From positions 1-64,000 of the forward strand of contig JAQSWM010000004.1 of NCBI GenBank assembly GCA_029266635.1: 64,000 nucleotides of DNA, written 5' to 3'. A program made the translations under genes and the position numbers. Below the pieces are notes generated by a model. It saw nothing but the letters and a program-made list of their open reading frames with translations. It was not told the origin of the DNA and searched no databases. Origin of the DNA: Sphingobacteriaceae bacterium (lineage in GTDB: Bacteria; Bacteroidota; Bacteroidia; Sphingobacteriales; Sphingobacteriaceae). Position 1 is the first letter of the stretch; each line of letters opens with the position of its first letter. Shown piece after piece: positions 15,227-17,281 of the stretch.

Positions 15227-15433
15227 CTAATTAACTGAATCTTGTTGTGCGTTAGCAGCTGAATCGATAGTGTCAGTTTTAGCATCTGCAGTAGAATCAA
15301 TTGAATCGGTTTGAACGTCAGCAGTTGAATCGATAGAATCAGAAGTGTTGCTTTCAGTTTTGTTAGAGTTACAAGCAGCAACTGATAAAGAAATTGCTAA
15401 AGCTAAAAAGCCGAATTTGAATAGATTTTTCAT
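15227..15433 (-). CDS. Small repeat-containing lipoprotein, paralogue of the neighbour
   Basis: The signal MKNLFKFGFLALAISLSVAAC ends in the lipobox cysteine. The mature 48 residues consist of a three-times repeated acidic unit (DSIDSTADVQT, DSIDSTADAKT, DTIDSAANAQQ). I chose the ATG at 15433 because it gives a proper signal; a longer frame upstream has no such feature. Only the lipobox region and signal are shared with the 14898 gene, so the tails have diverged while the export signal has stayed. No function can be assigned. Confidence 0.7.
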   Translation of the reverse strand: MKNLFKFGFLALAISLSVAACNSNKTESNTSDSIDSTADVQTDSIDSTADAKTDTIDSAANAQQDSVN

Positions 15434-15573
15434 GTCTTGGTTTTTTCTGGTGTAAATAAGTTTACTGGTTAATACCAGAGTGGATGAAAGGTAACCCGCA
15501 TATTTAAATAAATTTGCAAAAACTTTAAAAAACTGGCCAGGCACAGCAACGGGCTTAAATAAATTCCTGTGCG

Positions 15574-16179
15574 GTGGGTTACATTTTGGCTGTATATGGT
15601 ATTAACATTCAGAACGTGGTAAAAACGTCAGTTCCAGCAGACAATGAAATTATAATTGGAATTTTAAACGGGTCGCAGCAAACCCTGAACCAATTGTATA
15701 AGGCATATTTTCCGATGATCCTGCAATTCGTACTGACAAACAGCGGCGACGCCGATGATGCCAAGGACGTGTTTCAGGAGGCAGTTATCGTTCTTTATAA
15801 TAAGGTTAAGAGCGGCAATTTTGAGCTTAGCAGTAAGCTGAAAACTTTTATTTACTCAGTGTCGCGGCGGCTTTGGCTCAAACGCCTGAGCCAGAAGAGC
15901 AAGAATACCGGGAATATAAAAGACTTTGAAGAGATATTGCCGGTAGAGCATGATCTTGAGCAACATGAAATTAAAGACAGGCAATACCAGTTAATGGAAC
16001 AGTCTTTAGAGATGTTGGGTGAGCCATGCAAAACCATTATAGAAGATTTTTATTTAAAAAACAGTTCCATGCAGGATATCTGTGAAAAGTTTGGCTACAC
16101 CAATTCAGACAATGCCAAGACACAGAAATACAAATGCCTGCAACGCCTGAAAAAATTGTTTTTCCAGGGAAAAATGTAA
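15574..16179 (+). CDS. ECF-type RNA polymerase sigma factor
   Basis: Alternative sigma-70 family factor that would direct RNA polymerase to a dedicated set of promoters. Region 2 is seen at about residues 35-105 (YKAYFPMILQFV, DADDAKDVFQEAVIVLY, SKLKTFIYSVSRRLWLKRL). Region 4 is at about 135-195 (LGEPCKTIIEDFYLKNSSMQDICEKFGY). The first codon is uncertain: a GTG at 15574 opens the frame and another GTG lies at 15616; homology begins only around residue 25. The next gene starts seven bases after its stop and carries an anti-sigma-like N-terminus, so the two are almost certainly one functional unit. Confidence 0.85.
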   Translation: MGYILAVYGINIQNVVKTSVPADNEIIIGILNGSQQTLNQLYKAYFPMILQFVLTNSGDADDAKDVFQEAVIVLYNKVKSGNFELSSKLKTFIYSVSRRLWLKRLSQKSKNTGNIKDFEEILPVEHDLEQHEIKDRQYQLMEQSLEMLGEPCKTIIEDFYLKNSSMQDICEKFGYTNSDNAKTQKYKCLQRLKKLFFQGKM

Positions 16180-16186
16180 CGAGCAG

Positions 16187-17281
16187 ATGAAAGGTGATAT
16201 AGAATTATTTAATAAAATTGAAGCATACCTGAAGGGAGAGATGTCTCCCACAGAACATGCTGAATTTGACGAGTTGCGCAAAAACAACCCTGAGCTTGAC
16301 CATCAGGTTGTAGCACACCATAACTTTGTGTCTCAACTTACTGAGTATGGAAGCCGTCATCAGTTAAAGGCTGACATGGAAGATATTCACAGCCAGCTTG
16401 ATATTGCTGCCATTGAAAGTGAAGTGGTGCCCAATACTGTTCAGGTCAAAAAAATGTGGGGCAAGTATCGCTTTGATCTGGCTATCGCGGCTTCGGTAGC
16501 TATTTTGGCAGTGCTCTCAACCTTGTTATCAACCGGTTTTTTCGCTTCGGATAAAAATACCTCTAACTACAGTGCTCTCCGCCGTGAGATAAATAGCCTG
16601 AAACGTTCTCAAAACGCTCTTATCCAAAATATAAACGATAAGCCGGCTCACGGCCCTACAAACCCTGGGCAATTTGGTGGAACTGGTTTTGCCCTCACCG
16701 CCAACGGCTACGTGGTTACTAATTACCATGTGATTGAAGGTGCTGACTCTGTTTACATTCAGAACAGTGCAGGAGAATCATACAAGGTTAAGACAGTGTA
16801 TGCAGATCCGGTTTATGACCTTGCACTTCTTCAAATTACTGATAGTGCCTTCAAGCCGTTTAACTCGGTGCCATATTCAATCAAGAAAAATACGTCAGAT
16901 TTAGGCGAAGAGATTTACACAGTTGGATTTCCTAAAGACGATATCGTATTCAGCAAAGGGAGCTTAAGTTCAAAAACCGGCTATGACGGAGATACTACGG
17001 CCTACCAGATAGACATGAACGTAAATCCTGGTAACAGTGGCGGCCCGCTTTTTGACAACCGTGGCAACGTGGTTGGTGTTATTAAAGGAAAGCAGCTTAA
17101 GTATGACGGTGCTGCTTTTGCCATAAAATCTGGCTTTTTATTAAAAGCATTGGAGGCTATTCCTCAAGACTCTTTAACCGAAAAGCTGACACTTAGCAAG
17201 AAAAACTCCCTAACCGGCTTAAGCCGTGTTGAACAGGTGAAAAAGATGCGTGATTACATCTTTATCGTGAAAGTATATTAG
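16187..17281 (+). CDS. Membrane protein joining an anti-sigma-like domain to a trypsin-like protease
   Basis: Residues 1-90 are a cytoplasmic helical region resembling Bacteroidota anti-sigma domains (IEAYLKGEMSPTEHAEFDEL). A single transmembrane helix follows (about 97-119), then a short coiled coil (130-150). Residues about 163-325 are an S1C/HtrA-like protease with a complete triad: His181 in TNYHVIEG, Asp211 in VYDLALL and Ser284 in NPGNSGGP. No PDZ domain is present, unlike DegP/HtrA. The topology would put the protease in the periplasm. Coupling of sensor/protease and anti-sigma in one chain suggests regulated release of the sigma factor by envelope stress; this is inference. A terminator follows the gene. 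Confidence 0.82.
   Translation: MKGDIELFNKIEAYLKGEMSPTEHAEFDELRKNNPELDHQVVAHHNFVSQLTEYGSRHQLKADMEDIHSQLDIAAIESEVVPNTVQVKKMWGKYRFDLAIAASVAILAVLSTLLSTGFFASDKNTSNYSALRREINSLKRSQNALIQNINDKPAHGPTNPGQFGGTGFALTANGYVVTNYHVIEGADSVYIQNSAGESYKVKTVYADPVYDLALLQITDSAFKPFNSVPYSIKKNTSDLGEEIYTVGFPKDDIVFSKGSLSSKTGYDGDTTAYQIDMNVNPGNSGGPLFDNRGNVVGVIKGKQLKYDGAAFAIKSGFLLKALEAIPQDSLTEKLTLSKKNSLTGLSRVEQVKKMRDYIFIVKVY

Follow-up and report, generated by a model that had tools for sequence, protein, structure and literature searches.

The 64,000 nucleotides (nt) of Sphingobacteriaceae DNA analysed here (the window; positions 1 to 64,000 of contig JAQSWM010000004.1, assembly GCA_029266635.1) carry a gene for an extracytoplasmic function (ECF) sigma factor and, directly downstream, a gene for a membrane-spanning protein in which an anti-sigma-like N-terminal domain (N-domain) is fused to an HtrA-type serine protease domain. 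On balance we think it probable that the pair forms a one-chain switch of the RseA/DegS kind that controls its own operon together with small lipoproteins. The union of anti-sigma and protease domains on a single chain is well supported, and self- or trans-cleavage of that chain is a plausible signal. The parts are of known kinds (an ECF sigma factor, a class I-like anti-sigma domain, an S1C protease and intramembrane proteolysis); what appears to be new, judged from the open-licence literature surveyed, is a conserved ECF sigma factor whose anti-sigma partner is fused to an HtrA-type domain with a full triad, and which is linked to lipoproteins rich in O-glycosylation sequons.

Architecture of the sigma/fusion operon

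The genes and the parts of the fusion protein are as follows.

15616..16179, plus strand: ECF sigma factor gene; open reading frame (ORF) called from 15574, probable GTG start at 15616, 187 amino acids
16187..17281, plus strand: membrane-spanning anti-sigma/protease fusion; ORF with ATG start, 364 amino acids
16187..16471, plus strand: N-domain, residues 1-95, helical, predicted to be cytoplasmic and, on the basis of its modelled helices, of weak matches to zf-HC2 and RseA_N and of relatives that adjoin ECF sigma genes, anti-sigma-like
16484..16492, plus strand: Ile-Ala-Ala triplet (residues 100-102) where the transmembrane (TM) helix starts on the cytoplasmic side; by analogy with RsgI a candidate for site-2 cleavage and for the ClpXP tag
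16541..16666, plus strand: periplasmic juxtamembrane linker, residues 119-160; candidate site-1 cleavage region, with Leu131 nearly invariant
16679..17080, plus strand: HtrA/S1C serine protease domain, residues 165-298, from PF13365, the triad and Foldseek
16727-16729, 16817-16819 and 17036-17038, plus strand: codons of the triad residues His181, Asp211 and Ser284
17174..17278, plus strand: C-terminal helix-strand tail, residues 330-364, with conserved Gln350, Val361 and Lys362 and high predicted local distance difference test (pLDDT) values

The sigma ORF (15574-16179) stops 7 nt before the fusion gene and scores 75.9 bits against the NCBIfam sigma70-ECF model TIGR02937 (cut-off 42.9). Pfam recognised region 2 only in this ORF, and the structural model of a relative (locus L154) gave matches to both ECF sigma-2 and sigma-4 structures. 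Residues 165-298 of the fusion match Pfam Trypsin_2 (PF13365) with 96.3 bits (cut-off 27.6), a Trypsin match overlapping it, and no PDZ domain was matched by Pfam. The nearest NCBIfam models are Do/DegP, MarP and HhoA, with DegS lower and all of them under their cut-offs, and among solved structures MucD is the top match by sequence, while Foldseek gives MucD together with DegS lacking its PDZ as the best folds. The trypsin-like fold and the His-Asp-Ser triad found by Pfam, Foldseek and the alignments place the domain in the HtrA/S1C group.

An AlphaFold2 model of the fusion, built with 103 aligned sequences, reached a mean pLDDT of 88.4 and a predicted template modelling score (pTM) of 0.60. 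The N-domain was modelled as helices at 2-15, 21-33, 35-70 and 73-80, and a single long helix (85-115) contains the TM stretch. A helix in the linker (125-148) has low confidence; the strands of the protease barrel start at 162 and are followed by a helix at 315-323. The chain ends in a helix (347-357) and a strand (358-363), both modelled with high confidence. This tail, a helix and then a strand ending in VKVY, occupies the position of the PDZ domain in HtrA proteases. An earlier sequence-only reading had reported one TM helix, a trypsin-like protease with a complete triad and no PDZ domain, seven bases downstream of a sigma gene; Pfam, AlphaFold2 and the alignments described below confirm this architecture, with the start of the sigma gene revised.

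Conservation and distribution

Homologues were collected from Sphingobacteriaceae, the family of the window (f1), from Chitinophagaceae (f2) and Hymenobacteraceae (f9), both family names being inferred from named relatives, and from a fourth family (f10). A search of 151 genomes of Sphingobacteriaceae found a full-length orthologue in 20 of 25 genera, including Mucilaginibacter, Pedobacter and Sphingobacterium among the named relatives; two of the five genera lacking one are represented by a single incomplete genome each. In a sample of 392 genomes from the phylum, full-length or near-full-length matches occurred in these four families only, the match in the other families listed being to the protease part alone. 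Matches scoring as full length were found in 142 of 147 genomes of Chitinophagaceae, 60 of 60 of Hymenobacteraceae and 18 of 61 of f10.

From the best-scoring matches of each search, a spread of further matches within the families and the lowest-scoring Chitinophagaceae matches, the last taken on purpose to seek degenerate copies, 200 distinct full-length proteins were assembled. The His-Asp-Ser triad is intact in all 200, these lowest-scoring ones included, and the idea of a degenerate protease (0/200) was dropped. A homologous sigma ORF on the same strand, ending at most 300 nt from the fusion start and counting overlaps, lies upstream in 199 of the 200; in the single homologue lacking one (L011) just 114 nt separate the start from the end of the contig. 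Because of the intact triads and the upstream sigma genes, conservation of the pair is far beyond chance, and the idea of a chance neighbourhood of the two genes was dropped. Poor conservation of the gene pairing had been named beforehand as grounds for rejecting the sequence-only reading, which on this point held. Invariant in the 103-row alignment are Ala101, Ala102, Phe168, Thr178, His181, Asp211, Pro229, Gly247, Pro249, Gly258, Gly265, Gly282, Ser284, Gly285 and Pro287.

Fusions of f10 (for example L163, L166, L250, L251 and L255) keep the sigma gene, the TM Ala-Ala and the triad although in 13 of 18 the N-domain match starts late, and two of them (G744, G735) have an in-frame TGA inside the matched stretch. 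Six loci of other Bacteroidota (L182-L186, L188) encode lipoprotein-type or secreted proteases in which the S1C domain and a similar C-terminal tail recur behind a different N-terminal region; no ORF with a sigma motif was found in these loci. Proteases of this type are possibly the source of the fused protease. Further proteins of 355-378 residues with the same protease domain occur in some Chitinophagaceae and Hymenobacteraceae (L313, L314, L315 and L316), and these loci gave neither an N-domain match nor a sigma match.

Topology and the transmembrane Ala-Ala pair

A hydrophobic residue followed by Ala-Ala stands at the inner end of the TM helix in 200/200 homologues (Val in 129, Ile in 58, Ala in 8, Met in 3 and Leu in 2), so that the Ala pair is as invariant as the catalytic residues. 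The fusion therefore carries the XAA in the TM helix that is typical of substrates of regulated intramembrane proteolysis. RsgI anti-sigma factors are cleaved by RseP inside the TM helix, and the XAA motif is recognised by ClpXP (PMC12203970). The genome of the window, which is 95.76 percent complete, gave one match to an M50 (RseP-type) protease and one to another S1C protease (C10), which bears PDZ domains.

The topology was assessed with the Bacteroidota O-glycosylation sequon, D-S/T-A/L/V/I/M/T, which is used in non-cytoplasmic proteins (PMC12871550). Over the 200 homologues there are 532 sequons in the 49,582 residues after the TM helix (146 for the reversed motif) and 31 in the 20,118 residues before it (51 reversed). 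This bias gives independent support for a cytoplasmic N-domain and a periplasmic protease, the topology proposed from the sequence alone. Two sequons within the protease are conserved, at 187-189 in 159 of 200 proteins (only 21 of 59 in Chitinophagaceae) and at 269-271 in 176 of 200.

A predicted promoter shared with lipoprotein genes

The operon is preceded by a promoter-like motif that occurs a second time, in divergent orientation, before a small lipoprotein gene.

15576..15604, plus strand: GGGTTAC-N16-GTATTA, a predicted ECF promoter through which the sigma/fusion operon would be autoregulated, from the genome motif scan and the sigma-gene loci
15470..15497, minus strand: predicted divergent promoter of the lipoprotein gene, GGGTTAC-N15-GTATTA, from the genome scan and the same motif before this lipoprotein family in relatives

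In as many as 82 of 87 loci, almost all from Sphingobacteriaceae, pairs of four-base words taken from GGGTTAC-N15-GTAT precede the sigma gene; GGGT with GTAT was present in 80 of the 87, as against 18 for the commonest pair in three shuffles. Of 199 sigma genes from all families, 179 have the motif upstream (177 in a previous count made over another stretch), and it is present at 79/81 loci in Sphingobacteriaceae, 45/59 in Chitinophagaceae, 29/31 in Hymenobacteraceae, 17/18 in f10 and 9/10 named loci. The spacer is 15 nt in 158 loci and 16 in 21. None of 20 other ECF loci has the motif, and the idea that it is a general element of such loci was dropped.

The 3.6 Mb genome of the window has exactly two matches to GGGTTAC-N14..17-GTATTA, both upstream of the sigma gene, and none to the reversed pattern. 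With two mismatches allowed at spacer 15, the 45 sites found there against 57 for the reversed pattern are background. Across the family, GGGTTAC-N15,16-GTATWA is present in 94 of 101 genomes, and the seven lacking it (G007, G010, G022, G031, G032, G048 and G059, from three genera) are exactly those of the 101 lacking the fusion. There are 301 sites against 114 reversed in the 94 genomes and none against 3 in the seven, and 91 of the 94 have at least two sites, compared with 35 of 94 for the reversed control. One or more reversed-pattern sites turn up in 57 of the 94 fusion-bearing genomes and in three of the seven others, which weakens the genome-wide comparison taken alone. As such chance sites are frequent and the seven genomes span three genera only, this comparison has a supporting role, and the argument rests chiefly on where the motif lies, at the sigma gene. 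The sigma factor appears to autoregulate its operon through the GGGTTAC promoter.

The sigma start was moved from 15574 to about 15616 since the predicted promoter (15576-15604) lies after 15574, and the GTG at 15616 is probably the true start. A gap of 3-4 nt separates the -10 element from the next in-frame GTG in 62 of 79 Sphingobacteriaceae loci, and the sigma mRNA may therefore be leaderless or nearly so.

The E. coli sigma-E promoter has a 7-base -35 and a 6-base -10 element about 15 bases apart, and sigma-E is autoregulated. The GGGTTAC-N15/16-GTATTA layout resembles that promoter, whose -35 element is GGAACTT (PMC8103513). The motif is sharp enough for targets to be proposed from sequence.

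Small lipoproteins linked to the motif

15227..15433, minus strand: small lipoprotein of 68 amino acids with a signal peptide, a lipobox Cys and an Asp/Ser/Thr/Ala-rich tail with repeated O-glycosylation sequons

Following the motif sites across the loci gave, sigma genes aside, 172 different short lipoproteins along with 30 further ORF calls. The lipoproteins were picked by an ATG, a lipobox and a length below 140, and not by their sequons, and a few starts may be wrong; motif sites with no ORF of 40 codons within 300 nt were skipped. They occur in all four families, and in 161 of the 172 the start codon lies 30-54 nt past GTAT. Several loci (L407, L408, L409 and L410) have tandem lipoprotein copies, each with its own motif. 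Pfam, run on two of the small lipoproteins, gave no significant family.

In the mature small lipoproteins we counted 753 sequons in 8,184 residues, against 161 expected from per-protein shuffles and 185 for the reversed motif, although internal repeats make these counts non-independent. By family, sequons and reversed motifs number 455 and 98 in Sphingobacteriaceae, 141 and 24 in Chitinophagaceae, 67 and 35 in f10, and 51 and 26 in Hymenobacteraceae. The sequon of the general O-glycosylation system of Bacteroidota is found both in these lipoproteins and in the protease ectodomain, and its presence in exported proteins predicts from the sequence that they are O-glycoproteins. Sequon-rich small lipoproteins gain from this linkage a candidate regulator and an experimental handle.

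The N-domain and its sigma partner

The N-terminal part of the fusion profile also matches other proteins, in relatives and once in the genome of the window. Of 21 such N-domain-only relatives, 211-301 residues long (six from the Hymenobacteraceae search, 14 of about 31 listed in the f10 search and the one from the window's own genome), 20 have an ECF sigma ORF directly upstream, L279 being the exception; the own-genome protein carries RskA_C (69.5 bits). When 47 aligned N-domains (36 from fusions and 11 from protease-free proteins) were compared with Pfam at expectation values (E) up to 1, 17 matched zf-HC2 and four matched RseA_N, the two families with the most matches, with best E values of 8.6e-4 and 2.4e-5 and weak matches throughout. 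Five of six protease-free relatives matched the NCBI anti-sigma model with E below 1e-3, under its cut-off. The window's fusion itself falls below all cut-offs of the Pfam and NCBIfam anti-sigma models (best NCBIfam E 0.15 and 0.17). The anti-sigma assignment, as read from sequence, is one that rests on the homologues and not on the window protein's own database matches, and through them the N-domain is tentatively placed in an anti-sigma superfamily. The class I layout of three helices and a fourth, encoded beside a sigma gene, is seen in the modelled helices and in the pairing at 199 of 200 loci.

At locus L154 a natural read-through of sigma factor, intergenic codons and N-domain was modelled with a pTM of 0.77 and a pLDDT of 85.4, both scores referring to the whole chain. 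As this pTM is reached over three domains, compared with 0.60 for the fusion alone, the model hints at a defined sigma/N-domain arrangement. The best rows of a fold search with it were ECF sigma chains, several of them from AlgU-MucA and sigma-E-RseA complexes. Rows spanning both sigma domains have root mean square deviations (rmsd) of about 8 to 26 A, so that only single sigma domains match known folds and the search hardly probed the N-domain; we do not claim the arrangement of any known sigma/anti-sigma complex. Of the 60 rows shown from a PDB sequence search with the N-domain profile, 59 were nuclear receptors, a chance result; the remaining one, RslA (E 0.19), carries no weight as evidence.

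Proposed mechanism and alternatives

Starting from the gene pairing, the architecture, the intact triad, the invariant Ala-Ala, the promoter motif and the linked lipoprotein genes, all of which were computed, we infer the following sequence of events. The N-domain would hold the ECF sigma factor at the inner membrane, and the fused periplasmic domain would be the site-1 protease of its own chain or of a neighbour in an oligomer. Once active, it would cut its own linker (residues 119-160), and the trimmed chain would then be cut in the membrane at the hydrophobic-Ala-Ala by an RseP-type site-2 protease. Removal of the N-domain by ClpXP would free the sigma factor, which would transcribe from GGGTTAC-N15/16-GTATTA promoters its own operon and one or more sequon-rich small lipoproteins; autoregulation would also remake the inhibitor. 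Since motif-linked small lipoproteins occur in all four families, the lipoprotein itself, through its export or glycosylation, may be the most attractive signal. With everything on a single chain, a serine mutant and a reporter would suffice to probe how a site-1 protease is gated. The predicted circuit suggests a compact module for envelope sensing.

A more specific scheme, which we hold to be doubtful, is a homeostat for mucin-like lipoproteins, in which the fused protease at the inner membrane would monitor their supply, glycosylation or export and its own cleavage would set the sigma activity that makes more of them; naked lipoprotein tails, for example, might occupy or activate the protease. 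The conserved protease sequons at 187-189 and 269-271 would then make the sensor itself a substrate of glycosylation. If true, this would be a stress response dedicated to protein O-glycosylation or lipoprotein sorting in Bacteroidota, in which the anti-sigma factor would act as site-1 protease on itself.

Several results weigh against the self-cleaving switch. No conserved scissile motif was seen in the linker (119-160). The 13 protease-free relatives displayed also have, as judged by eye, Ala-Ala where the TM helix starts; the pair therefore argues for intramembrane proteolysis generally and not for self-cleavage. The promoter motif was found at only 45 of the 59 Chitinophagaceae loci. In 13 of the 18 f10 fusions the match starts at profile position 32-49, the first N-domain helices being missing or broken, and these fusions keep their sigma gene and, at 17 of 18 f10 loci, the promoter. 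The N-domain profile gave no significant anti-sigma match among PDB sequences. Coevolution was measured as mutual information with average-product correction over 199 sigma/fusion pairs (effective number 148), and at the two tighter clusterings no sigma/N-domain signal rose above within-clade shuffles (z 0.6 and 1.5); other regions scored alike (protease -1.2 and 0.8, tail 1.6 and 2.2). With the loosest clustering, all regions rose (z 8.8 for the N-domain, 8.1 TM, 6.6 protease, 4.1 linker and 3.9 tail), and because a rise in every region may reflect relatedness nothing is claimed from it. An enrichment of the N-domain among the top 50-100 coevolving pairs, uncontrolled by shuffles, was superseded by the shuffled test. 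Nor does the N-domain stand out in the mirror-tree comparison: its distance correlation with the sigma factor is 0.718, and that of the protease 0.781.

The missing scissile motif would also suit a fused protease that is an effector, a membrane-tethered housekeeping enzyme acting for instance on mislocalised or unglycosylated lipoproteins, where occupancy by substrate would alter the grip of the N-domain on the sigma factor and the chain would stay uncut. A triad intact in 200/200 fits any substrate, and the non-fusion protease relatives that score best among the phylum genomes sampled, L182-L186 and L188, belong to lipoprotein-type or secreted enzymes with a similar tail, in loci where no sigma-motif ORF was found. 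The invariant hydrophobic-Ala-Ala at the TM start, however, fits intramembrane proteolysis, and the model membrane anti-sigma factor RseA is controlled by cleavage (PMC8103513); we regard this effector reading as rather unlikely. The site-1 cut might instead be made by another protease, such as the PDZ-bearing HtrA at C10, with the fused domain serving as a sensor or inhibitor of the cut. That additional S1C match means that a separate DegS/DegP-like enzyme is available, but one would not expect a domain that merely senses to retain the full triad in 200/200 homologues, and this division of labour seems improbable. The negative coevolution test also suits an N-domain that is an activator or membrane dock for the sigma factor in the manner of FecR, proteolysis liberating an active complex of the two, as does the report that class I anti-sigma domains lie beside only 6 percent of Bacteroidetes ECF genes (PMC7406223). 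Against this stand the four-helix N-domain, as in class I, and the matches of its relatives to zf-HC2, RseA_N and the NCBI anti-sigma model, albeit below cut-offs, and we consider an activator very unlikely.

Comparison with known systems

In its general plan the single-chain switch is like the E. coli RpoE-RseA-DegS-RseP system, in which a single-TM anti-sigma factor holds an ECF sigma factor and a DegS-fold protease of the HtrA type takes part. E. coli RseA likewise has Ala-Ala at the start of its TM helix. DegS and RseA are separate chains, DegS having a PDZ sensor (PMC8103513); here there is one chain, with no PDZ domain, a conserved helix-strand tail and small lipoproteins as the visible targets. 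RpoE-RseA-DegS, the best studied of such envelope stress systems, divides sensing, cutting and sigma-holding among several proteins, whereas here they would be gathered on one conserved chain.

Pseudomonas has the ECF sigma factor AlgU, the membrane anti-sigma factor MucA and the HtrA proteases AlgW and MucD. MucD is the best match of the fused protease by sequence and fold, but in that system protease and anti-sigma factor are separate proteins. Autoproteolysis of RsgI9 was reportedly described by Takayesu in 2024. RsgI9 of Clostridium thermocellum, with an extracellular S1C domain, a TM XAA and RseP and ClpXP steps (PMC12203970), is the nearest precedent for a protease-like domain on an anti-sigma factor, and its structure (PDB 7sjy) was matched by the fusion. 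The same article describes the S1C domain as protease-like and cellulose-binding and cites autocleavage of the periplasmic domain; unlike the fusion, RsgI9 is of the SigI type, with a different N-domain, no sigma partner of its own and an extra NTF2 domain (PMC12203970). The RsgI family is not among the Pfam and NCBIfam matches of the fusion, and the sigma partner of the fusion matches the ECF model. Anti-sigma factors that process themselves are not known to use a serine-protease domain for it, and they are partnered with TonB-dependent receptors. Self-processing is reported for some other anti-sigma factors (PMC10202637).

The sequence-only reading fares unevenly in this light. Its placing of anti-sigma and protease domains on one chain is well supported, and RsgI9 offers a precedent for a protease-like domain on an anti-sigma factor. 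Its anti-sigma-like N-terminus draws support from relatives (20 of 21 beside ECF sigma genes, with the weak zf-HC2 and RseA_N matches) and not by the window protein, which stays below all cut-offs. Its overall interpretation is partly supported, and neither the promoter nor the lipoprotein targets figured in it. Open-licence literature, surveyed by title and opening lines of the abstract, showed no description of the fusion, the promoter motif or the lipoproteins, nor any ECF circuit dedicated to small lipoproteins rich in sequons.

Motif sites away from the sigma gene

Fifteen distant motif sites were chosen from the listed part of the family genome scan. Six of these precede small lipoproteins (L394, L395, L396, L398, L399 and L400), and one (L406) precedes a gene that we take, from its sequence, to encode serine hydroxymethyltransferase. 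Four others (L401-L404) precede a secreted DUF4294-type protein, as judged by Pfam on L401 and L403; in these four loci, from four genomes of one Sphingobacteriaceae genus, GGGTTAC-N15-GTATTA lies 41-42 nt upstream of this gene, whose product is a possible second target of the sigma factor. The remaining four (L397, L405, L411 and L412) have no nearby gene. At L405 and L412, which belong to different genera, related lipoproteins of 287 and 292 residues start about 300 nt past the motif site, and they represent a possible third type of target.

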